Assembly (NCBI GenBank): GCA_034096865.1 | Contig: JAWQFJ010026687.1 | Location: 1 to 12,372, forward strand | Reading direction: 5' to 3' | Length of the DNA stretch: 12,372 nt | Source: Theodoxus fluviatilis | Lineage: Eukaryota > Mollusca > Gastropoda > Cycloneritida > Neritidae | Part shown: piece after piece, positions 1 through 12,372 of the stretch | Layout: each line of letters starts with the position of its first letter | How positions within the stretch are numbered: position 1 is the first letter of the stretch | Made by a program: the position numbers and the translations under genes | The notes under the pieces: model-generated | The model's input: the letters and a program-made list of their open reading frames with translations, nothing else | What the model was told of the DNA's origin: nothing | The model's database searches: none

Positions 1-61
1 CTGGCGGGCCACACATGCTGGCGAGCCACACAAGCTGGCGAGCCACACAAGCTGGCAGGCC
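1..61. repeat. 17-bp tandem repeat at window edge
   Basis: About 3.6 copies of a 17-bp unit of the form CTGGCGAGCCACACAAG, with one or two substitutions between copies. The array runs off the left edge, so its full length is unknown. It looks like a simple minisatellite; no coding or regulatory role is visible. Confidence 0.75.
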
Positions 62-977
62 AAAGCATTTGAGCGGCTACGTTTTTACGAGGTTAAATAA
101 AATCCGTATTCTTTTGTTATTGCGTGTGTGAAATACTGCAAATTCACTGAGGATTAACCAACCCAGGTTGCTTGCCAATCAGATGCTATGGCTCACTAGC
201 GTGTGTAGCCCGCCAGCTTGACTGTCTCTTTCACAAACTACTCTCCTCGAACGAACCCACTAGTGTGGCCCTTCTCTGGAAACTTTTCCGAAGATTTACA
301 GCCTATCAGCCTTTGTACGCTCGTGTAAGACCATTAATAACGAAAATCGCTCGATATGTTTAGAGCAAGAGCAAGTCAAATATCGATTTTCTAGGTCAAT
401 TGCTCTGACAAATCACATAGGGAGACGCGATTGAAATACCCGTATCCCTTACCCACGGGGAAAGCTCTATGGAAGTACTATGGCCATAAAATCCAGATTG
501 GAATGGTGAAGGTGAGGCTGTGGTGAGGGGACGGTGGATGGGGGTGGTGAGAATGGGGCGGCAGGTTCCGTATGAGAAACGCAAAGCTCACGACTGCAGA
601 CATGGTGCACTCCAAGCGATTACACCACTTCTTCATTGGACAGATTACATGTCTGCATAACATGCTTCTGCATGTGATAAGTTTATGAATTTTACACAGG
701 GGTCTGCCACAGTATGCAACGACAGCAAGCTCTTGAGCATACTGTTCTATATTTCTAGATGAATCGTAAAAGATGTGCAGAAAACTAGTAGATTATATCT
801 GTGTTCAAGTGATTTGCGTTGCCCCTATAACTGTAAACGTACAGCTTGTATACACTGGCCCCAACTGCAGTCGCTCATATATGGTTTGACCTGTGTAAGG
901 TTTGTCTGCGGCGCTTTACTTTATTGAATACATTTTGTTCTATTTGGTAAATTTCACGTCAAAAGTGACACTGCCAC
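62..977. other. Left flank, nothing recognised
   Basis: About 900 bp of mixed-composition DNA. The only open frames are about 60 codons, have no recognisable motifs, and overlap one another in different frames. No splice-flanked exon, RNA gene or repeat family was recognised. It is best treated as intergenic or intronic host DNA, or as an unrecognised old repeat. Confidence 0.5.
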
Positions 978-1307
978 ATGAAGCGACCTCCGAAGTGCGC
1001 CCCCAACAAGCAATCAGACGCGATCGTTTCGTTGGCGAACGGACTTATCACGATTGTTGATGGGGAAAACGGGAGTCGGTGTCGAGATTGCGAGCCAGCA
1101 GCGTTGGGCTTTGGAGACCGTTTAATTGCAAGAATTGACCAATAGGACGTTGAAGGGACAATTGCAGCAATTACTCCCCAAGAAACGAAACGATTCCATT
1201 TTGTTGCCTTTGGCGGGCTTTGCGAGCGGGCGACCGGCTTAGTAAACGTGTGTGTAATGACCGAGTCTTCTGCTGTGATTGTCGGTCTTATTAAGGAGCT
1301 TGAGTGA
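978..1307 (+). pseudogene. Possible decayed coding remnant (unknown)
   Basis: Reading from the ATG at 978, one frame stays open for 110 codons except for a single TAG at 1143-1145 (codon 56), and ends at TGA 1305-1307. The conceptual product has a CRDC motif around residue 36 and a hydrophobic C-terminal stretch ending VIVGLIKELE. I recognise no family. The opposite strand is also open over this stretch (959-1447), so chance is a serious alternative. Its position directly against the broken end of the 3' LTR suggests it may belong to whatever replaced the missing LTR end. Low confidence. Confidence 0.15.
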
Positions 1308-1370
1308 TGTGCGAGCATGTGGTCCTCAAGTCTATCTCCAGACGCACAACCATCACTATCATGACCTACA

Positions 1371-1673
1371 CCACCACTATCCAAATCAACAAACACCCAA
1401 AAATACCAATCACTAGCATGACCCTTGCCACACCAGCACCCAATCACTGATCGTCAAGACATTCCAATCCCCCACCACTATCCAAATCAACAAACAACCA
1501 AAAATACAAATCACTAGCATGACCCTTGCCACACCAGCACCCAATCACTGATCATCAAGACAGTCCAATCTCCCACCACTATCCAAATCAACAAACAACC
1601 AAAAATACAAATCACTAGCATGACCCTTGCCACACCAGCACCCAATCACTGATCATCAAGACAATCCAATCCC
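1371..1673. repeat. 101-bp tandem repeat, three copies (3' LTR)
   Basis: Units begin CCACCACTATCC at 1371, 1472 and 1573, a strict 101-bp period with a few substitutions (for example GATCGTCAAG versus GATCATCAAG). The 5' LTR has only two units at 6581 and 6682. The copy-number difference fits strand slippage during reverse transcription, or replication slippage or unequal exchange after insertion. Confidence 0.9.
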
Positions 1674-1860
1674 ACAAAACAATACTAAACTAAACCAGAA
1701 TTCCACTTGTCTTGTACATATTTACAATATACAATTCTAACTCACAACTTCGACCAAATTGACCAAAAATTCTTTTAACCCGTGGCGCCACCGACTCACA
1801 ATAAAAAAATCAACAAAATACAAAACATTTGTCATACCGACACACCCAAACACAAAAACC

Positions 1861-2308
1861 TATCCAAGACTTCGCCCACACAGGGTACATGGATATAACT
1901 TCACCACCGTCCCACAGAGAGACATATCCAAGACTTCGCCCACACAGGGTACAGGGATCTAACTTCACAACCGTCTCACACAGAGAAATATCCAAGACTT
2001 CGCCCACGCAGGGTACAGGGATATAACTTCACAACCCTCTCACCCAGAGACATATCCAAGACTTCGCCCACCTAGGGTACAGGGATATAACTTCACAACC
2101 GTCTCACACAGAGACATATCCAAGACTTCGCCCACGCAGGGTACAGGGATATAACTTCACAACCGTCTCACACAGAGAAATATCCAAGACTTCGCCCACG
2201 CAGGGTACCGGGATATAACTTCACAACCGTCTCACACAGAGAAATATCCAAGACTTCGCCCACACAGGGTACAGGGATATAACTTCACAACCGTCTCACA
2301 AAGAAATT
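1861..2308. repeat. 64-bp tandem repeat, seven copies (3' LTR)
   Basis: TATCCAAGACTTCGCCCA recurs at 1861, 1925, 1989, 2053, 2117, 2181 and 2245, an exact 64-bp period. Each unit also holds a CAGGGTACAGGGATATAAC-type block. Single-base variants mark individual units and are shared with the 5' LTR array, so the array predates this insertion. Tandem units inside an LTR often act as enhancers, but that is inference here. Confidence 0.92.
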
Positions 2309-2797
2309 TGTACTCACTGGGAAAAACCTCCTTCCTCGACACAACAACGTAGCTCCTAGCCCTCCGGCTCTCTCACTCTGCACGACAGCAGGTAATCGCT
2401 ATCCTGGTCGAGACTCTCGGCACGAGCCGTCCCCACTGTGGGACACACAGCGTCCCCTGACTCTCAACCGTAGAAAGCTCATGTTTTCCAGCACCCAGCA
2501 CCATAGCTCCTCACCCTCTCTCTCTCTACCTCCCTGTGTCCTCTGATTTTTCACTCCTCACCCCCTTCTCACATCTCCCGTGATCCTCTCGCCCGCCACT
2601 TGCACGGACCAATCCGTCTCAGTTCATGGCAACGTCACATGTCCGTGCTCGTTGTGAGTACTATTCAGCTTGACCCATGCTACTCACGATGTTATTTTTT
2701 CTAGCGCGGCCAAAACCGTTTCCAATATTAAGCCTGCCTTGTCGCCAGGATGTTAAAGGCCCTTATTCACCGCATCCTCAAAATTCGCCGTGTGACA

Positions 2798-2820
2798 AAC
2801 TCCCCCCCCCCCCCCCCCTC
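2798..2820 (-). promoter_or_regulatory. Polypurine tract (plus-strand primer site)
   Basis: On the minus strand this reads GA, a run of 17 G, then AGTT, immediately before the TGTCACAC start of the 3' LTR. A purine run abutting the 3' LTR is the standard primer site for second-strand DNA synthesis in LTR retroelements. The unbroken G17 is an unusually monotonous version, and its exact length may be unreliable in the assembly. Confidence 0.85.
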
Positions 2821-2822
2821 AA

Positions 2823-2842
2823 GTTCTATCATCCGATAGAAC
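2823..2842 (-). other. Perfect 8-bp-stem hairpin beside the polypurine tract
   Basis: GTTCTATC and GATAGAAC pair perfectly around a four-base loop, two bases upstream (sense direction) of the polypurine region and just after the RNase H stop codon. It could form in RNA or single-stranded DNA. A role in polypurine-tract protection or RNA export would be speculative. Confidence 0.6.
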
Positions 2843-2879
2843 CCACAAAAAAATACACACGGACGACTTTTCCTCCCCT

Positions 2880-3137
2880 TCACTCCCCTAGGCGACTCAG
2901 GAAGTCCGCTCCCACATTCTCGGCGCCCGGGATCGCTCGCACGGAGAATGAGTACTGTTGTAGCGATAGGGCCCACCTCATGACCCTTCGGTTAGTGCTT
3001 TTCATGGTTTGCCTGAACTGCAGGGGTTGATGGTCACACTCGATGATGAAATGGCGTCCCCACCGGTACGGTGCAAACTTGCCGATTGCCCAGACAATGG
3101 CTAGACATTCTCGCTCGATCGTAGAGAAGTTTTTCTC
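2880..3137 (-). other. RNase H C-terminal domain remnant
   Basis: The last ~83 codons of the fusion ORF. They match the C-terminal half of Ty3/gypsy RNase H: the helix with the second acidic residue (ECLAIVWAI), the CDHQPL strand, the RRVMRWALSLQQY helix and the GADFLSRL terminal motif. The ORF stops at 2880, only ~60 bp before the polypurine tract. No integrase follows, in contrast to most Ty3/gypsy elements. Confidence 0.88.
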
Positions 3138-4673
3138 CAGGTCTGCCCCTCTCTGTCTGGATGCCTTCAGCCTCCCACTCAGCTCCTCTATCTCCTCCAG
3201 TCTCTTGGCCAACTGCACAATGTAGTCGTTTTTCTGCAACTCCCGCTGCTGCAGTAAGGCCCTTTGGTGGTGGTACAGTGAGATGTACTCGCCGATAGTG
3301 TCTGTTTCTCCCTGGAGCTGCAGGACAAGATGCTCCAGCTGCTCTGCCTTGTCCCGCATCACACTCATGTACTTCTCCTGAATCATCTCCATGGCAGACC
3401 TCAGCTTCTCAAACTCCGCTCTGCTGATCTTGTCGCTGTCCAGGTACTCGTTGCTGGCAGATTTTCTGATGACCTCCTCCTGGAGGTCAGCGACCTTGAT
3501 GCCAAGGTTATCCGAGAGTTGGCGCTGGTCCGTCTCCAGATGATGTATCCTGGTTGACAGCGATTCAATCACTTCATCTCTGCTGGTTTCTCTCTCTGCG
3601 TCGGTCGACTCTGAGTTCTCCGAGACAGCGGTGACCTTGATCAGCATGTTGCGCAACTCCTTGTTCTGCGTCGTCAGTGCATCCATCATGTCCTGTGCAG
3701 AGTGCAGCTCATTCTGCAGCGTCTCCACGAGCTGGGCCTGGGCCTCATAGTGGCGGAGCCGGTCCTGGATCTGGTCCGGCTGGAACTCCTCACGCTGCAG
3801 CGACGCCAGCGTTCGTTGTAGCTGCTCAACACTCCTGTCCTTGTCCACCAGCTGGGCGTGGAGCTGGGTGAGTTCATCTTCCTGCACAGCCAGCTTGCCT
3901 GCCAGCTCTTGGCACGAGTGCTGGTCTGACTGCAGTCTGGTGGTCAGCTCCATGTTGTCGTTGCTCATCTTGACAAAGCCGTTCTGCAGCTCTGCCAGCT
4001 GGACCTTGAGTTCCTTGTTCTGGGCCAGGGCGCGGCTGAGCGCCGTCTTGTCGCTCTGGATGCTCTCCAGCAGTGAGCTGCGGTCTCCCGCCTCCTCCCC
4101 AAGCTCCGCAACCCTCCTCTCCAAATCCATGATCTGCTCCTCCTTCTCCTCCAGGAACCTGCTGAGCTGGGCATTGTCGCGGATCTGGGCCTCGTGTCGG
4201 CTCTGCAGGTCCCTCAGCTCAGACATGGCCGCCTCCAGCTCCTGTGCCGTCTCTGGTGGCACTGCCACTGTTTCTGTTGTGGCCCTGGACTTCTCCCCCG
4301 CCAGTGTCTCCAGTCTGGCCTGCAGCTCCATCACTGCAGCCTCCGCCTCGTGCTGCTGTAGCTTCAGCCTCGAGTTGTCCGTCACTTTTGATTTCAACTT
4401 GGCAGTGAGTTCTGCATTCTGTTGTGACAGCTCGTCCTTAGATTTGTTGAGTTTGCACAAATCCAGCTTCAACCGGTCCACTTCTTTGGCGTTCTCCCTG
4501 CTGGACTTCTCAAACTGCTGGCTGGTCTGGGAGAGAGAGAGGCAACGTTCTCCGACGGTGATACTGGCGACACGACATCCCTCCACGACCGTATGGCCTT
4601 GAGTGCGCTTCTTGGACAATTTCGAGCCCTGTGCCCGATTTCCTTGCACACAAAGCATCTTCCCCTGAACCAT
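2880..4673 (-). CDS. Captured GM130 (golgin A2) coiled coil fused to partial RNase H
   Basis: A 597-codon ORF in the -1 frame relative to gag and overlapping it by 205 nt. The first ATG is at 4673, but translation more likely comes from gag by frameshifting. Residues 1 to ~45 are gag/pre-pol sequence read in this frame. Residues ~48-513 match the central coiled coil of GM130/GOLGA2, the cis-Golgi vesicle-tethering golgin: ELKVQLAELQNGFVK (221-235) and GETDTIGEYI (455-464) are GM130 landmarks, with heptads nearly throughout. Residues ~513-595 are the C-terminal part of a Ty3/gypsy RNase H, with STIERECLAIVWAI, CDHQPL and GADFLSR. Acidic residues E522, D547 and D590 are present; the first catalytic Asp lies in the missing part, so the domain should be inactive. 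Also absent are the GM130 N-terminus (p115 and importin binding), the C-terminal GRASP65-binding tail, protease, RT and integrase. No intron interrupts the ~1.4 kb of golgin, which points to capture from spliced RNA. No stop breaks the frame, but the insertion is too young for that to prove selection. Confidence 0.88.
   Translation of the reverse strand: MVQGKMLCVQGNRAQGSKLSKKRTQGHTVVEGCRVASITVGERCLSLSQTSQQFEKSSRENAKEVDRLKLDLCKLNKSKDELSQQNAELTAKLKSKVTDNSRLKLQQHEAEAAVMELQARLETLAGEKSRATTETVAVPPETAQELEAAMSELRDLQSRHEAQIRDNAQLSRFLEEKEEQIMDLERRVAELGEEAGDRSSLLESIQSDKTALSRALAQNKELKVQLAELQNGFVKMSNDNMELTTRLQSDQHSCQELAGKLAVQEDELTQLHAQLVDKDRSVEQLQRTLASLQREEFQPDQIQDRLRHYEAQAQLVETLQNELHSAQDMMDALTTQNKELRNMLIKVTAVSENSESTDAERETSRDEVIESLSTRIHHLETDQRQLSDNLGIKVADLQEEVIRKSASNEYLDSDKISRAEFEKLRSAMEMIQEKYMSVMRDKAEQLEHLVLQLQGETDTIGEYISLYHHQRALLQQRELQKNDYIVQLAKRLEEIEELSGRLKASRQRGADLEKNFSTIERECLAIVWAIGKFAPYRWGRHFIIECDHQPLQFRQTMKSTNRRVMRWALSLQQYSFSVRAIPGAENVGADFLSRLGE
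3137..4532 (-). other. GOLGA2-like: Captured GOLGA2/GM130 central coiled-coil segment
   Basis: About 465 codons co-linear with the central part of vertebrate GM130 as I know it, from the region of human residues near 300 to about 870, with internal length differences. Identity is high in the SRALAQNKELK...GFVK and GETDTIGEYI blocks and lower between them. Composition is typical of an extended coiled coil, rich in Glu, Gln, Leu, Arg and Lys. The 5' boundary is uncertain within roughly 4520-4590; the 3' boundary lies in 3128-3145, where the golgin reads into the LEKNFSTIE start of the RNase H piece. Confidence 0.85.
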
Positions 4674-5998
4674 TTTGCATTCGTCACCCTCGCGGAACCA
4701 GCGTATTGCTCATCGTACTTGAGTGTCCCCTTTTTCACATTCCGGATACTCGACCTCGGATCAGAACTGTCCTTTTCTCCCTCAGGCTGCGTAGCTGTCC
4801 TGTCTCCTGAGTTGAGTCGCGAGAAGACCGACGTTGCCGACCGGGCCATGCGACGAGCTTCCAAGTGATTAAACGCGTGAGTCGCACTTTCCTTAGCTGT
4901 CGCTTTTCCCTTTTCAAGGACATGTTGCAGGAGCTCTGATGAGAAGCCCCTCAACAGCTGTTCTTTGAGGAAGAGGTCGAGGATGCCCTCTGCGTCTCCT
5001 AAGTCTACCTCCTCATGAGAAAGCCAGCTGATGAAAGCAGTTCTCAGACGAATGAAGAACTCTTTAAAATTTTCATCGCCTTCCCTCTTAATAGACCGGA
5101 ATGTCTTCTGGTACTGGTCGGCGGACTTGTGGAAGGCCTCTTGAAGAACTTTCTTGATTTTCTCATATTCAAGACTCTCAGGGTTGTCCATGCGGAGCCA
5201 CGCCTCCTTCGCCTTTCCCTGCAAAAGTGGAGACAGACGCCGACCCCATTCAGACCTCCTCCAACCATGTGCTTCTACGTTTCTCTCGAAGTGTAGTAAG
5301 TATCGGTCAATGTCCTCTTCATCTTGAAACTTCTCTAAATGGAGTCGATAATTGTCCCTCCTATCCACGTCCACTTGATTGTCGACAGTGGTCTCCGCTT
5401 GAGAGCGGGGCGGACCTCGCCCTACAGCCGCCTGCAGGATACTCGCCATGTCCTCCAGGTGCCGAGCGTCTCTCATCTCAGCCTCCCTCCTAAGCTCCAG
5501 TGTCTCTCGTTGCATCTGCTGCATCATTGCCAAAACTGATGCTATGGACTCCCCCTGCACTGGAGGACTATCACCAATGCCGGGAGGCTCTCGCTTCGCT
5601 CCAACGTTGGCTGAGACCTGTTGTGGAGGGGACTTGTACGACGTCAGTAGCGGTGAAGCCAGGCGAAAAGGAAGCAGACCACCCCTACCCCTTCCGGTAT
5701 ACGCACTGGACATCATGGGCGAGGAGACGCTGCCGAACGCCAACACCGCCTCTTCCCTCAGCTGAGGTGAGAAGGCGATGGTGGTCGTGGACGTAGTCGT
5801 AGTTACGGGTCCTGTAGTGACAGGTGTTGATGGATAAGATTCAACAAGGGTCCCCAACGGCTCGAACAGGGACCTCTCCGCCATCTCCAACACCGGGGAC
5901 AGCAGTGGCGAGGATATCCCGGGAGTAGGCGACGGACTCAGACAGCGAGAACGCTGCCGTAGAGTTGACGCTCGTACCGACCGGTCTGACTCGGCCAT
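4469..5998 (-). CDS. gag: Retrotransposon Gag (SCAN-like capsid, CCHC zinc knuckle)
   Basis: A 509-residue structural protein that would assemble the particle and package element RNA. The first in-frame ATG is at 5998 (MAESDRSVR); the frame is open a little further upstream, but only from a TTG. Residues 1-155 are rich in Ser, Thr and Pro. Residues ~157-190 form a short coiled coil (MMQQMQRETLELRREAE). Residues ~215-385 are a retrotransposon Gag capsid region (EKFQDEEDIDRYLLHFERN, then KAKEAWLRM). Its second half, ~285-383, resembles the SCAN fold (FKEFFIRLRTAFISWL, LKEQLLRGFSSELLQHVLE). A basic stretch precedes the zinc knuckle at 448-461, C-X2-C-X4-H-X4-C. The stop at 4471-4469 lies inside the captured golgin DNA, so about the last 21 residues are golgin sequence read out of frame: the capture gave Gag a new C-terminus. 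The frame is otherwise intact. Capsid assembly is a family property, not shown here. Confidence 0.9.
   Translation of the reverse strand: MAESDRSVRASTLRQRSRCLSPSPTPGISSPLLSPVLEMAERSLFEPLGTLVESYPSTPVTTGPVTTTTSTTTIAFSPQLREEAVLAFGSVSSPMMSSAYTGRGRGGLLPFRLASPLLTSYKSPPQQVSANVGAKREPPGIGDSPPVQGESIASVLAMMQQMQRETLELRREAEMRDARHLEDMASILQAAVGRGPPRSQAETTVDNQVDVDRRDNYRLHLEKFQDEEDIDRYLLHFERNVEAHGWRRSEWGRRLSPLLQGKAKEAWLRMDNPESLEYEKIKKVLQEAFHKSADQYQKTFRSIKREGDENFKEFFIRLRTAFISWLSHEEVDLGDAEGILDLFLKEQLLRGFSSELLQHVLEKGKATAKESATHAFNHLEARRMARSATSVFSRLNSGDRTATQPEGEKDSSDPRSSIRNVKKGTLKYDEQYAGSARVTNAKWFRGRCFVCKEIGHRARNCPRSALKAIRSWRDVVSPVSPSENVASLSPRPASSLRSPAGRTPKKWTG
4527..4543 (-). promoter_or_regulatory. Splice-acceptor-like sequence at the golgin 5' junction
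   Basis: On the minus strand CTCTCTCTCTCCCAG lies directly before ACCAGCCAGCAG, the point where GM130 similarity begins. A pyrimidine tract ending in CAG is what a 3' splice site looks like. It may be the tail of a host intron left at the capture junction, or just a low-complexity stretch. Use as an acceptor is untested. Confidence 0.3.
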
Positions 5999-6155
5999 CA
6001 ACCACTGAAAGCCAAGCAAACTACATCCCCACAACCAAACCCAGTCATCAGAACACTACCATCGCGGACTCTACACCAACTCTTCCAGGGTACCGACAAT
6101 TTCTTCTCAACCATACACCCAACAGAAAAACACAATTACAAAACCAATTGATTGG
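5999..6155 (-). other. Untranslated leader between primer-binding site and gag
   Basis: 157 bp between the primer-binding site and the gag ATG. In retroelements this region usually carries the RNA packaging signal. No strong hairpin or other motif was identified by eye. Confidence 0.55.
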
Positions 6156-6173
6156 ATCCCGGACGAGCCCCCA
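6156..6173 (-). promoter_or_regulatory. Primer-binding site, tRNA-Pro type
   Basis: The minus strand reads TGGGGGCTCGTCCGGGAT, complementary to the 3' 18 nt (including CCA) of animal tRNA-Pro and identical to the well-known murine leukaemia virus tRNA-Pro site. It starts three bases (AAA) after the 5' LTR end, the normal position for priming minus-strand DNA synthesis, and fixes both the LTR boundary and the element's orientation. Confidence 0.93.
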
Positions 6174-6274
6174 TTTTGTCACGGGTCCCTTCCTACTCGG
6201 ACTTTTTCCGAGAGGGACATCACATCCAATCAACAGATACAATACACAACACGCAAATAAATTAACAAATTCAA

Positions 6275-6280
6275 TTTATT
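6275..6280 (-). promoter_or_regulatory. Candidate polyadenylation signal AATAAA
   Basis: AATAAA on the element's sense strand, ~100 bp before the LTR/primer-binding-site boundary. It is the only such hexamer I found on that strand of the complete LTR. Its equivalent has been lost from the truncated 3' LTR, where it would be needed. Confidence 0.45.
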
Positions 6281-6580
6281 TTTACAAAACTCTAACACAA
6301 CCCATCAATAAAGTACACATTCAATCATAAAAAAACACATATCATAAAACCAAAACAATTCCAGTTCTTCAACAGCCCAACATCCTCCTAAACTCAACCA
6401 CACTCACTCAAAATCTAAACCACATAAGAAACCCACCTCAACCAACAACATCTCAACTTTCCCCAAAAGCCAGTCTCAATACATGACAATCCCATCAATC
6501 AAATCCTCAAATCACAACAATATCCAACTTAACACCATGCTAGAGTACACCACAATTAACCATCACTATCATGACCTACA

Positions 6581-6782
6581 CCACCACTATCCAAATCAAC
6601 AAACACCCAAAAATACCAATCACTAGCATGACCCTTGCCACACCAGCACCCAATCACTGATCGTCAAGACAATCCAATCCCCCACCACTATCCAAATCAA
6701 CAAACAACCAAAAATACAAATCACTAGCATGACCCTTGCCACACCAGCACCCAATCACTGATCATCAAGACAATCCAATCCC
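6581..6782. repeat. 101-bp tandem repeat, two copies (5' LTR)
   Basis: Units begin CCACCACTATCC at 6581 and 6682. They correspond to three units in the 3' LTR and account for nearly all of the length difference between the shared parts of the two LTRs. Confidence 0.9.
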
Positions 6783-6969
6783 ACAAAACAATACTAAACT
6801 AAACCAGAATTCCACTTGTCTTGTACATATTTACAATATACAATTCTAACTCACAACTTCGACCAAATTGACCAAAAATTCTTTTAACCCGTGGCGCCAC
6901 CGACTCACAATAAAAAAATCAACAAAATACAAAACATTTGTCATACCGACACACCCAAACATAAAAACC

Positions 6970-7417
6970 TATCCAAGACTTCGCCCACACAGGGTACATG
7001 GATATAACTTCACCACCGTCCCACAGAGAGACATATCCAAGACTTCGCCCACACAGGGTACAGGGATCTAACTTCACAACCGTCTCACACAGAGAAATAT
7101 CCAAGACTTCGCCCACGCAGGGTACAGGGATATAACTTCACAACCCTCTCACCCAGAGACATATCCAAGACTTCGCCCACCTAGGGTACAGGGATATAAC
7201 TTCACAACCGTCTCACACAGAGACATATCCAAGACTTCGCCCACGCAGGGTACAGGGATATAACTTCACAACCGTCTCACACAGAGAAATATCCAAGACT
7301 TCGCCCACGCAGGGTACCGGGATATAACTTCACAACCGTCTCACACAGAGAAATATCCAAGACTTCGCCCACACAGGGTACAGGGATATAACTTCACAAC
7401 CGTCTCACAAAGAAATT
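6970..7417. repeat. 64-bp tandem repeat, seven copies (5' LTR)
   Basis: TATCCAAGACTTCGCCCA recurs at 6970, 7034, 7098, 7162, 7226, 7290 and 7354. By eye the array matches the 3' LTR copy unit for unit, including private variants such as CCTAGGG in the fourth unit and GTACCGGG in the sixth. Confidence 0.92.
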
Positions 7418-8015
7418 TGTACTCACTGGGAAAAACCTCCTTCCTCGACACAACAACGTAGCTCCTAGCCCCCCGGCTCTCTCACTCTGCACGACAGCAG
7501 GTAATTGCTATCCTGGTCGAGACTCTCGGCACGAGCCGTCCCCACTGTGGGACACACAGCGTCCCCTGACTCTCAACCGTAGAAAGCTCATGTTTTCCAG
7601 CACCCAGCACCATAGCTCCTCACCCTCTCTCTCTCTACCTCCCTGTGTCCTCTGATTTTTCACTCCTCACCCCCTTCTCACATCTCCCGTGATCCTCTCG
7701 CCCGCCACTTGCACGGACCAATCCGTCTCAGTTCATGGCAACGTCACATGTCCGTGCTCGTTGTGAGTACTATTCAGCTTGACCCATGCTACTCACGATG
7801 TTATTTTTTCTAGCGCGGCCAAAACCGTTTCCAATATTAAGCCTGCCTTGTCGCCAGGATGTTAAAGGCCCTTATTCACCGCATCCTCAAAATTCGCCGT
7901 GTGACACGTAGTAGTCATGGATGATATTTTTCGCATCGATCATTTAACAGTGAATCACATCACTGAAGCTGACAGTGTGTCGCCTTTTTGCTTTACGCGG
8001 GATTTCCTCACGCCT

Positions 8016-8439
8016 GTTCTTAATTGATGAATAAATCTTGGCTAATATTCACCAAGTCTTGGCAAATTACTGAATGGCAAATATTCTGCAAAACCAAACC
8101 AAGCCAAGATCTCCCAAAGGACCTTTGCAATATGGCATCGATCGGCACCATGCCCATACTATTTGTGTGCAAAGGCTGTAAATGTAAACAGAGCGACATA
8201 TTTTTTCCGCCATTGTGCTCTGAGAGGATCTCACGAATATCTTGTGCCAATAGCTATTGGCAATACCTGTCGAGTCAATGTCCGAAGTCTTGGCCCATAT
8301 TTCCCAAGTCTTGGCGAGGACCAATTAAGAACCAGAACATTTGACCAAATATTCAGCGAATATATCCCAAGACTCGGCAAATTTTGACCTAATATTTGGC
8401 CAATATTTGCCAATACTTGACAAACATCAGGTTAAGAAC
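8016..8439. mobile_element. Possible MITE-like element with imperfect terminal inverted repeats
   Basis: GTTCTTAATTGATGA (8016-8030) is an imperfect inverted match to ACATCAGGTTAAGAAC (8424-8439). Similarity continues inwards on both sides through TTGGC/AATATT/CCAA blocks. The ~425-bp interval is AT-rich and repeats the near-palindrome CCAAGTCTTGGC at 8052, 8283, 8304 and 8366 (the last as CCAAGACTCGGC). There is no transposase and I see no clear target-site duplication. The short open frames here overlap on both strands and look like products of the palindromic sequence. It could instead be a degenerate interspersed or satellite-derived repeat. Confidence 0.4.
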
Positions 8440-9205
8440 TGGCTTTACTTTTCATTGGCCAGGACATGACGTTAAGGTACTATGCAAATCAAACGGGAAA
8501 TGGCTTCCGGCGTTTGACTTAAATAAGTAGGTTAGACGTAAATCCCTTTCATGCACACCACTGGACCTGTGTGCTGAGGAAGTGCTTTGCTGAGGCTGCT
8601 TCGGAGTAAAGACAGGACTTAAATCTAGCCATTCTATGCACAGGGTCCCCTACTTCTGCCGCCTTGCCTTGGCTGGCTCGCGAGAAATTATTTGTCAGCT
8701 AGTAGGCCAAACAACGCGCCCCTGCTGAATTAATTAAGTGTGCATGAATGAACACGACAGATCAGAGCTAGACGGCGCCAGAACGGAATCTGAAGGTCTT
8801 GGGAAGCATTGTCCGGGGCAACCTATATTTACGGAGATTGATCTCACTGAAGAGAAAAAACCCTCTATAAGGTAATCAGATTTTCCATCTGCCGGATTAG
8901 ATATTTCAAGAATGCTTTCCTGGCTTTGCCATTTCAATAACCAATATTCCCTGGGTCCTCGATTTATTCTAAGACATTATGGCAACAGTCGTTCAGCCAC
9001 TAATGTCGACAGGACGACCGACCCGGAGAAGGATGGACGCATACTAAAGGCTTGATTGCGCCCAGTGTGTCTGAAGGTCGATACGTCGGTCCAGTGCAAG
9101 AATGGGGAAACTCCATAATATCCTTGGCATGGGGATTTTTCCATCAAAGCACTGCGGCAGGCCATGGTGTCATTGATGCTAATATTAGTTTGATCTCAGT
9201 CTGTT
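8440..9205. other. Right flank, nothing recognised
   Basis: About 770 bp of mixed composition with no open frame above ~67 codons, no RNA gene and no repeat that I could identify. Confidence 0.5.
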
Positions 9206-9210
9206 CATTT

Positions 9211-9645
<435 letters not shown>

Positions 9646-10095
9646 ATGATTAGGGCCTCGCAACAGCAGCACAGGCAACCTCGACCGATCCTCGTTTTTC
9701 TCGCATTGTGGTCAGACAAACTGGTACTCCTTCAACGTGGCAGGGAACCTCTCAGATCCAGGGGAGTGAAGATATCTGGGGACCTGACGACAAGACAGAC
9801 AGCACTGCTGCGCAATCTCCGTAGTGAGGGAAGAGTGGGCTATTTCAGAAATAACCAGCTCTTCTACCGAGACGCTGCTACATATTCCTCAAGTCGTGCT
9901 CCACGTCACGTGAATACAGACAGCACACAGCGTATTCAAGACGCAGGCCCCGCAACAATAACAACAATAACAACAACAGTTATTTCTACTATTGTCATTG
10001 TCTCTACTTCCGCTGCTACTCTCACCATTGCTGACGTTGACGCTGCTTCTACAGGCCCCGCCCAGGAAGACGAACTGTTGACGCTAGCTTTATAG
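9646..10095 (+). pseudogene. L1-like ORF1 C-terminal fragment (tentative)
   Basis: A 149-codon open frame starting right after the CT repeat. Residues ~12-75 (RPILVFLALWSDKLVLLQRG, GVKISGDLTTRQTALLRNLR, GYFRNNQLFYRD) follow the pattern at the end of many L1-type non-LTR retrotransposon ORF1 proteins: RP-I-V-F, a helix, then an I..DLT..R..LL..R block and a short strand ending in a basic or acidic residue. That C-terminal region binds nucleic acid. The rest (Thr/Ile/Val/Ala-rich) reads through ACA/ACT-rich sequence and is probably not conserved protein. No ORF2 follows, so this would be a truncated remnant. The family call is from pattern memory only. The 3' half lies in arm 1 of the inverted repeat. 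Confidence 0.4.
9884..10053 (+). repeat. Inverted repeat, arm 1
   Basis: The reverse complement of this stretch matches 11615-11826. The best block is 10004-10053, where about 39 consecutive bases match the opposite arm before a one-base insertion. A second block around 9895-9940 (TACGCTGTGTGCTGTCTGTA on the other strand) and an (AAC)n-rich middle part also align, with gaps. Overall divergence is substantial, so the duplication is old or the arms are two related repeats. Confidence 0.8.
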
Positions 10096-10609
10096 GGAGG
10101 GTTGGATGTACGTCATGGCTCGATGACTAGCTTCGGACTCGTTTACGCACCCACTACCCCACACCAACTACTAGGCTTTTGACTATGCGCGCTACTGGCT
10201 TATCACATGCCTCCACGTAATACCCTTAAAGATTGTCTTTCCTACATTTTCTCCATATTATGCTAAAAAACGGATTTGTAAATTGTTACAGAAACGGACG
10301 ACTATCCATACTTTTGGAATCCACTAGTAAACTACTATTATTATGACTGGTGTGAATGTATGACTATGAATTACGTTGTAGGATGATTGATGTTTGATGA
10401 TTAATGACTATTTGATAAGATGGAGGTACGTAGATAATGGACACGCTAGTAATGAGCGTTATTGAGAAATAGTGACTGGTAGATAGTGCATAAGGATGCA
10501 AGATTGATGTAGGAGCCCATAGCAAGTGAGGGTTGAGTGGGGGATTAGTAGGAGGTGGAGGACTGTGAGAGTTCATTTATCTCTTAGGATGTTTTGAAGT
10601 TGTCATACT
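10096..10609. other. Unassigned AT-rich spacer between inverted arms
   Basis: About 500 bp, AT-rich and with many GATTGATG/TGATTAATGA-like stretches. No open frame above ~70 codons, no RNA gene and no recognisable transposon end was found. Confidence 0.5.
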
Positions 10610-11375
10610 GCTCACTTCTTACTATTACTTTATTAGTACTACTACTCCGTTATTTATTTCTTCCCGTTCCATTATTGCCTCCTTATTCTTCTTCTCCGTC
10701 TTCATTCTTCTTATTGTATTTCCCATCTTAGGATTTTGACCTACATCTCTTTTGCATTCTTTTGTCTCTTCCTTTTCCTATTCTTATTAGGGGGGGTCTT
10801 TTCTTCTTCTTCTTCAGTTTCTTCTTCCTTTTTCTATTCCTTTTATGCTTCGTGCTTCGATTCTCTTTTCTTCCTTCTTTCATTTTCTTCTCTTTGCTCT
10901 CTACCTCCCCCTCCTCTCGTTCCCCTTCTTTGTCCTTTGGTTCTTTGCTTTTTATTTTCCCCTCCCTCTCCCTCATTCTAATTCCTCTCCTGTCCCTCTC
11001 TTATTTTCCCATACGCCTCCTCCTCCTCCTCCTCCTCCTCCTCTCCTCCCTCTCTCCTCCTCTCCTCTCCTCCTCCCTCTCTTCCTCCTCCTCCTCCTCC
11101 TCCAGCCTCTCTCCTTCCTCCTCCTCCTCTGCCTTCGTCCTCGTCCTTCCTCCTCTTCCTACTTTCCTCCCTCCTCTGCCTGACTTTCCATCCTCTCTCT
11201 CCTCAACTCCTCCGCCGTCTTCCCCTTCCTCCTCCTCGCCCCCACTCCTCCTCCTTGCCTAACCTTTCTCCTCGTCTTTCTCCTCCTCTCCTGCCTCCCC
11301 TTCTCATCCTCGTTTCTCTCACTCTTCCTCCTACCTCTTCCTCCTCCTCCTCCTTTTCTCTTCCTCATTCAGTTA
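10610..11375. repeat. Long pyrimidine-rich tract with (CTT)n and (CCT)n
   Basis: About 770 bp in which the plus strand is overwhelmingly C and T: TTCTTC-type in the first half, then pure (CCT)n runs near 11016-11042 and 11084-11103. Such polypurine/polypyrimidine DNA can form triplex (H-DNA) and is prone to polymerase slippage. The long Ser/Leu/Pro and Arg/Glu/Lys open frames on the two strands are repeat artefacts. Confidence 0.9.
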
Positions 11376-11614
11376 CTATGAGTTTCGTCTCATCACTCAT
11401 CATCATCATCCCTCATCGTCCTCATCGTCAATCATCACCAATCATCATCATGTCGTTGTTGTTGTCTCAGTTTTTCCTACACGTATCCGGTCGTTCTTTC
11501 TTGTAACATTAGCGGTTTTTATTGATTATGCGAGGTGTTATTGTTTCGTTGAGGTGAAGTGAGGTGATGGCGTAGCAGTAGTTGTCGTGTGGTAGTGGTG
11601 GACAGATCATAGCA
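11376..11614. other. Short unassigned stretch with CAT/ATC repeats
   Basis: An interrupted (ATC)n stretch near 11395-11450 is followed by unique-looking sequence and GAGGTGAAGTGAGGTGATG repeats near 11550-11570. Nothing coding was recognised. Confidence 0.5.
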
Positions 11615-11826
11615 GTAGAAGCAGCGTCAACGTCAGCAATGGTGAGAGTAGCAGGCGGAAGTCTAGTATCAATGAGCGGCAATTTTGGCTTATGTGGGAT
11701 AGAAATAACTCGGTTTTTGTTATTGTTCTGTTTATTGTGTTTTGCGGCGGGCGTGCGGTCTTAGATACGCTGTGTGCTGTCTGTAATTCACGTGTGACGT
11801 ACGTGACGAGCACGACGCTTTAGGAA
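11615..11826 (-). repeat. Inverted repeat, arm 2
   Basis: Reverse-complement partner of 9884-10053. The block 11615-11664 carries the ~39-base near-perfect match; the GAAATAACTCGG/TTATTGTT part and the TACGCTGTGTGCTGTCTGTA block (about 11765-11786) continue the alignment in the same order, with small insertions. Arm 2 is ~40 bp longer than arm 1. No open frame corresponding to the arm 1 protein is preserved here. Confidence 0.8.
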
Positions 11827-12075
11827 GTGTACCTACGTGGGTGGAGGTTTGATGTTTGCGTTTCTAGGTCTACGTTTTAAGGGTGTTTGGTTATGCTAGT
11901 TTGTCTGTGCTGTGGTGGGTTGTGTGCGTGTGTTTGGAGCCTAATGCGGAATGTCGATAGGCTGAATAACGGGGTCAGGTCGGGGTTAGTTCTGGTTTGG
12001 CTGGCTTGGGTGTTAACCGAGTGCCCTCGAATCAGTCTTGAGTTTCGAGACAGAGTAGACGTATGGAATAGTTAG
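11827..12075. other. Unassigned G/T-rich stretch
   Basis: About 250 bp, G/T-rich on the plus strand, beyond the clear end of arm 2. If the inverted duplication once extended further, this should correspond to 9640-9880, but I can see only scattered matches. No gene was recognised. Confidence 0.45.
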
Positions 12076-12372
12076 GTGAGGGTCACGCGGGAATATGGAG
12101 AGATATGACAGATGCAGTACCAGAGCAGACGACAGACGACTACAGACAACAACATAGGAGGAGAGAAGGGGGAACAGAGAGGAAAACAAGGGAAACTCGG
12201 AGAGTAAAGAAATAACAAGAGAGAGAGAAGAAGAGAAAGGTGAGCGCACGGAGAGAGGTAGTTTGAATATGTCGGTTGTGTTCGAAGATGTGAGAGCACA
12301 AGAGAGTAGAGTGAAGCACATGGAGACAGAGCGAGACACACCACACCTCGAGACATACCAACACAGACCACT
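12076..12372. repeat. Purine-rich GA / CA low-complexity tract
   Basis: The plus strand is rich in GA and GAA (about 12150-12260), then in ACA/GACA-type sequence to the window edge. It is the compositional mirror image of the GT/CT block left of arm 1. It runs off the right edge, and reading frames on the minus strand across it are Ser/Leu-rich artefacts. Confidence 0.75.

Follow-up and report, generated by a model that had tools for sequence, protein, structure and literature searches.

We analyzed a 12,372-nucleotide stretch of DNA from the gastropod Theodoxus fluviatilis (contig JAWQFJ010026687.1, positions 1 to 12,372; hereafter the window), which is C15494 among the 19668 contigs of the 965-Mb genome assembly. 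Its minus strand carries a long terminal repeat (LTR) retrotransposon in which an LTR, a primer-binding site (PBS), gag, a segment of the golgin gene GOLGA2, a partial RNase H, a polypurine tract and a second, truncated LTR follow one another. This arrangement very probably arose when a Gmr1-like element captured co-packaged, spliced GOLGA2 RNA by template switching, with the golgin part as a passenger. The protease (PR), reverse transcriptase (RT) and integrase (IN) are absent from the golgin elements, and the cis signals and gag are retained. As in a gene-transducing LTR element, the cargo is free of introns that the host gene bears, lies inside the LTRs, replaces element genes and is copied along with the element.

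Identity of the golgin cargo and its host gene

The original prediction had assigned an intron-free reading frame between gag and RNase H to GOLGA2, and this assignment held. The golgin segment matches the Pfam family PF15070 (GOLGA2L5) at 3.7e-64, and PF15070 was present in 56/56 golgin homologues reported among 7994 candidates scored. Among the matches listed, the best named homologues were those of Aplysia (59%), Candidula (58%) and Batillaria (57%), all of them gastropods, and Octopus (55%). When the genome was searched with the golgin part, 28 matches were obtained, which fell on six contigs with the insert and on C6445. The latter carries the host GOLGA2 gene, where the sequence is spread as exons over about 27 kb. 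The element copy in C8618 holds 15 consecutive host exons, the last of them partial, at 96-100% identity, and a single GT-AG solution exists at the exact joint for 14/14 introns between them. Considering that all 14 introns were precisely removed in C8618, spliced RNA was captured, and the cargo of the element is spliced host GOLGA2 RNA. The lack of the host introns also bears out the earlier proposal that host mRNA had been recombined into the element, replacing PR, IN, RT and part of RNase H.

A further intron precedes the exon at C6445:4169; its acceptor fits as well, and its donor exon was not found in the assembly. Exons of the host gene that would precede the captured block were searched for at the DNA level, by pattern and at the protein level, which gave 6, 5 and 11 matches, respectively, all in element copies. 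The ends of GOLGA2 bind p115 and GRASP65, and both golgin ends are missing from the captured segment. As a separate observation on the host gene, one intron contains eight repeats, at ~98-bp spacing, of a 28-41-bp piece of the GOLGA2 exon before it (C6445:30218-30931).

Borders of the captured segment

The gag of the window runs from the ATG at 5998 to the golgin junction (4544..5998), and the junction GGAGAACGTTG is located at 4543..4553. A DNA search of the genome with gag gave 34 matches, of which 13 span the full query (12 copies besides that of the window), and 8 of these carry no golgin. The similarity of the window to these golgin-free copies stops exactly at 4543 in 8/8 fetched copies and restarts at 2883 in 5/5 that are readable that far. 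At the gag side, the golgin-free relatives retrieved read GGAGACGTTG and continue into the protease, and the golgin elements read GGAGAACGTTG; at the RNase H side, the sequence is GTGCCGAGAAAAAC in C6600 and GACCTGGAGAAAAAC in the golgin elements. Short shared sequences occur at both borders, and the golgin is in frame at both.

Between these borders, the main golgin block of the window (3204..4542) consists of spliced GOLGA2 exons, with internal deletions of 294, 30 and 18 nt relative to the C8618 copy. It is followed by a piece of 66 nt (3203..3138) and by the C-terminal part of RNase H (2883..3137; Pfam PF17917, 3.8e-20, profile positions 43-105 of 105), which is in frame with the golgin and ends at a stop at 2880-2882. 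From 3137 onward, the RNase H piece is 94% identical to the fragment C6600. It is without profile positions 1-42, which, going by Ty3 RNase H, we take to include the first catalytic aspartate.

Circular permutation of the golgin

The original prediction was right about GOLGA2, but the segment is not collinear with it, as the last 66 nt come from upstream of the 5' border. These 22 codons, RLEEIEELSGRLKASRQRGADL, match the GOLGA2 sequence that, in orthologues, immediately precedes the main block at that border. When aligned to P0006, P0008 and P0010, the two golgin pieces form one stretch with one residue between them, and the permutation alignment scored 96 against a maximum of 51 in 200 shuffles. 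Since the codons at the 3' end derive from upstream of the 5' border, the golgin is, judging from the order in orthologues, circularly permuted, and its two borders map to a single golgin site, give or take about one codon.

Inside the golgin, the joint QLAK|RLEE falls within a host exon, whose end (...GATGCAG|GTAGGT) is 18 nt further on. Around the joint, host and element have GGCCAAG and GAGGAGAT in common, in register, and we take it to reflect a jump between two golgin sites, a similarity-driven switch that would have occurred in reverse transcription. It is improbable, though the permutation and the proximity of the two borders are consistent with it, that a circular GOLGA2 RNA was instead copied exactly once around in the particle. 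Such a template would place both borders at the same site automatically; however, the joint lies inside the host exon and not at its end, so that an extra small deletion would be required, and the sequences common in register favor the similarity-driven switch. The position of the joint likewise makes back-splicing less probable as the principal route. We also considered TCTCTCCCAG at the 5' border as a splice acceptor and rejected it, as this sequence encodes golgin residues and the host acceptor found is 3' of it. If a circular template were nonetheless true, LTR retrotransposons could mobilize host circular RNAs as permuted, in-frame Gag fusions. Independent of the route, the permutation restricts the possible paths of reverse transcription, and it can be searched for in other captured genes.

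Copies and insertion sites

The original prediction had called for a search for other copies with the same gag-golgin junction, and the genome search found the fusion in six contigs. Because the flank of C12209 is identical to that of the window at 1346/1346 bp, these two represent the same insertion, which leaves five loci rather than six: the window, C461, C8618, C4633 and C2943. Perfect 5-bp target duplications flank 2/2 golgin copies readable at both ends (GTCAA in C4633 and ATCAG in C2943). With the golgin-free C3078 and C6868, 5-bp target duplications were seen in 4/4 family copies for which both flanks were retrieved; the window copy stands outside this count, as its 3' LTR is truncated. 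The flanks of C4633 and C2943 do not match each other, yet the two copies have identical internal deletions, and hence the deleted form itself moved. The divergence between paired LTRs (Kimura two-parameter) was 0.0012 in C4633, 0.0043 in C461, 0.0121 in C2943 and 0.0164 in C8618 (924 bp only), and that of the window was 0.0061 over the first 1324 bp, or 0.0172 if carried through the repeats to the truncation. Based on this range (0.0012-0.0172), the insertions are recent.

A gag-golgin fusion reading frame had been predicted in the window, where gag and golgin are in fact open in different frames (4472-6055 and 2883-4709, respectively). The fusion is a single frame elsewhere: C8618 has one open Gag-GOLGA2-RNaseH frame of 1172 codons, and C4633 has one open fusion frame of 891 codons. 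In the other three of five copies the frame is broken, within the first golgin codons in the window, ~35 codons into the golgin in C461 and within gag in C2943.

Golgin-free relatives and family of origin

To place the lost genes, we used the relatives without golgin. In C5200, C13796 and C15601, gag continues into the protease and then the contig ends. An RNase H DNA search gave 14 matches, which correspond to the six golgin contigs, C6600 (97%), C19502 (95%) and six distant ones. C6600 has the order integrase (102-273), RT (585-744) and RNase H (834-937), followed by a stop and an LTR. As RNase H is natively last in C6600, one replacement explains all lost element genes, and the idea that the terminal RNase H points to a further deletion, one of IN, was rejected. 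The LTRs of C6600 and C5200, the latter with gag-PR, are 99.6% identical over 1702 bp, and between C8618 and C6600 the LTR identity is 95.6% over 1144 bp and 96.5% over 313 bp. These identities place the capture in an autonomous family. The capture probably happened in the C6600/C5200 family, as a single replacement that would extend from the gag/PR border into RNase H. In the other four golgin loci, the unique 3' (U3) region is 73-75% identical to C8618 over the first 240-280 bp where alignable, and the LTR ends are 93-95% identical over about 312 bp. In the 5' LTR of the window, the similarity to C8618 is about 75% over the first 235 bp and about 94% over the last 312 bp, and the middle is unalignable. 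By this pattern of identities, U3 was clearly exchanged later between LTR families.

Regarding the lineage, one source gives integrase before RT as the order of Gmr1 (PMC2774666), and another describes SCAN for Gmr elements (PMC4131045). In C6600 integrase is upstream of RT and RNase H, and the window gag has a SCAN-like capsid region (4871..5116; Pfam PF02023, E 1.5e-6) that scores 28.4 bits against a cut-off of 27. C16463 scored 24.2 bits, below the cut-off, and C8618 was unreported at E<=0.01. The family of origin appears to be Gmr1-like Ty3/gypsy, going by the gene order in C6600. Unlike the Gmr1 lineage, the golgin elements themselves are without IN and RT, since these, along with PR, have been replaced by golgin. 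A homology search with gag returned nothing at E<=1e-3 among 7987 candidates scored.

In C3078 (within 59400-69399), C16463, C8420, C6868 and C1139, protease remains are accompanied by a different cassette, and the gag end is about 1.4 kb from the 3' region. By eye, this second cassette looks like coiled coil and membrane segments; in C16463 it is part of a single frame of 931 codons, and in C1139 of one of 932. Pfam gave no family above the cut-off for it, and no homologue was found at E<=1e-3 among 7996 candidates scored. Diverged partial relatives of it occur elsewhere in the genome, and the one that was read, in C1134, is pseudogenized. The cassette is possibly a second capture.

Evolution after capture

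To compare the cargo with the host gene, codon sites were tallied over five copies, with the partial copy C12209 left out, and 44 sites differed between the host and any of the element copies. Twenty-one of the 44 are common to all copies that keep the codon, 16 being synonymous and 5 non-synonymous, and 2 of these 5 resemble host-side changes when judged by outgroups. The remaining 23 sites are private or partial, with 20 non-synonymous, 2 synonymous and 1 mixed; 10 of the 20 private non-synonymous changes are found only in the C4633/C2943 lineage. Non-synonymous sites are 3.6 times as many as synonymous sites. Between host and C8618, the synonymous divergence (dS) was 0.058 and the non-synonymous divergence (dN) was 0.0078. 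The shared changes look like host-type evolution and may reflect an allele or a host split of great age, or else an early phase under constraint; the private changes show no amino-acid constraint among copies.

The reading frame behaves differently from the amino-acid sequence. All five distinct golgin deletions longer than 5 nt (294, 30, 18, 195 and 648 nt) keep the frame, for which the chance is about 1 in 240 if the deletions are independent. These deletions carry 2-10 nt of microhomology. In C461, a 1-nt difference breaks the frame. Frame continuity may therefore matter while the amino-acid sequence apparently does not, and likelier causes than a golgin function would be the stability of the RNA or a requirement that the Gag extension be continuous.

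The frame keeping, the open frames of 1172 and 891 codons, the in-frame borders and the coiled-coil-like look of the second cassette by eye (its Pfam matches being below the cut-off) could together suggest that the Gag-GOLGA2 fusion is a selected functional protein, whose coiled coil multimerizes Gag or docks particles at Golgi membranes. We consider this unlikely, as RNA stability could equally well explain the frame keeping, forms missing 342 or 843 nt of golgin still moved, and the frame is broken in three of the five copies. Together with the 20 to 2 excess of non-synonymous private changes (1 mixed), the loss of both golgin ends also leaves unsupported the earlier suggestion that the fusion could alter particle assembly or act on the host Golgi, and with it a Golgi role for the golgin segment. 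The same private changes, with five LTR-bearing loci in place of one conserved locus, speak against a domesticated Gag-derived host gene. Most likely, the golgin is carried as a passenger, and nothing but the continuity of its frame was preserved.

Other features of the element

The LTR pair, PBS-like sequence, gag, RNase H piece and polypurine tract of the original prediction were each recovered at or near the predicted position, although only one of the two LTRs is complete. The 5' LTR (6177..7906) is full, with 1730 bp and the ends TGTCAC...GTGACA, which are the same at C4633 and C2943. The 3' LTR (1347..2797) is truncated at its 3' end at about 1347, and C12209 has the same truncation and flank. 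The PBS-like sequence TGGGGGCTCGTCCGGGAT (6156..6173) lies 3 nt past the 5' LTR and recurs behind the 5' LTR in C461, C8618, C4633 and C2943; it is presumably of the tRNA-Pro type. The CCHC zinc knuckle of gag is located at 4613..4660 (Pfam PF00098, 22.7 bits against a cut-off of 20.8). The polypurine tract is at 2800..2820, and the adjoining sequence (2883-2812) is kept in 5/5 golgin-free relatives readable that far. All these features are on the minus strand. Each LTR contains an array of a 64-bp unit in 6.9 copies, and the repeat tracts of both LTRs cover 1371-1673, 1861-2304, 6581-6782 and 6970-7413 of the window. Of a 101-bp unit, the 3' LTR of the window has three copies and the 5' LTR two. 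Long tracts rich in tetranucleotides and trinucleotides are found right of the element, at 9212-9636 and 11016-11354.

Proposed mechanism

Based on these results, we propose that a Gmr1-like Ty3/gypsy element with the order gag-PR-IN-RT-RNaseH would have co-packaged spliced GOLGA2 RNA in its particle. Within RNase H, at GAGAA, the reverse transcriptase would have switched from the element RNA to the golgin RNA, and at GGAGA(A)CGTTG, on the gag/PR border, it would have switched back. Golgin would thereby have displaced PR, IN, RT and the front of RNase H while staying in frame with the element on either side. The permutation, with its two borders near a single golgin site, would call for an extra step, either a switch between two golgin sites of local similarity or a passage round a circular or tandem template. 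The chimera then reached at least five loci; mobilization was presumably in trans, with autonomous relatives providing polymerase and integrase.

Several points weigh against this proposal. No complete autonomous element was found within one contig, as C5200 ends in PR and C6600 begins there, and the sequence of C19502 consists of N further upstream. The host exon that would prove the permutation at the DNA level was not found in the assembly, so that it is from the gene order of other species that the permutation is deduced. Moreover, a gag tree does not group the five golgin copies and places the window and C461 with C13796 and C15601 (support 0.82), so that an exchange of gag segments or a tree error must be assumed. 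In spite of the gag tree, a single capture is favored because the borders and the permutation are shared.

A processed pseudogene of GOLGA2, made by a long interspersed nuclear element (LINE) and landed in the element, would also be without introns, but it is highly implausible, since the cargo replaces PR-IN-RT instead of adding to them, is permuted, joins the element in frame on either side and has no poly(A) at its end. An assembly chimera or collapsed repeat, which the fragmentation into 19668 contigs might suggest and which the original prediction had named as a possible refutation, can practically be dismissed, as the insert is present in six contigs at five distinct loci, where the borders agree but the flanks differ, and two of the copies have target duplications of their own.

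Comparison with known systems

Retroviruses transduce host genes, and in acutely transforming retroviruses a host gene joined to Gag takes the position of pol, which makes these viruses dependent on helper functions. The element described here is similar in its fusion of Gag with a host gene that replaces pol, but it is a retrotransposon, no env was seen, and its golgin cargo is unconstrained among copies. LTR-mediated retroposition is said to have been described in metazoans by Tan in 2016 (cited in PMC8232201). A template-switch model joins mRNA to LTR elements at microsimilarities (PMC5408686), and the capture proposed here would be of this kind. In comparison with that text, the golgin element keeps gag, fused in frame, has pol cleanly replaced, and was multiplied as a chimera. 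Maize Bs1, as described in PMC13317346, is an LTR element that carries segments of three host genes, and both elements thus have cellular coding sequence between LTRs. Relative to that description of Bs1, the present case differs in its animal host, Gmr1-like element, single gene, permuted golgin, several recent copies and two open fusion frames. In the titles and abstract openings of the literature matches listed, there was no golgin-carrying retrotransposon and no animal retrotransposon with one host gene as a multiplied Gag fusion. Taken all together, gene capture by LTR elements is already known, and the new points are its demonstration here, the spread of the chimera, the background of Gmr1 type and the permutation. 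The host gene with its introns, five chimera loci, golgin-free sisters and a pol-bearing relative occur together in one genome, and as such the borders, the permutation, the later deletions and the loss of constraint can be read nucleotide by nucleotide.

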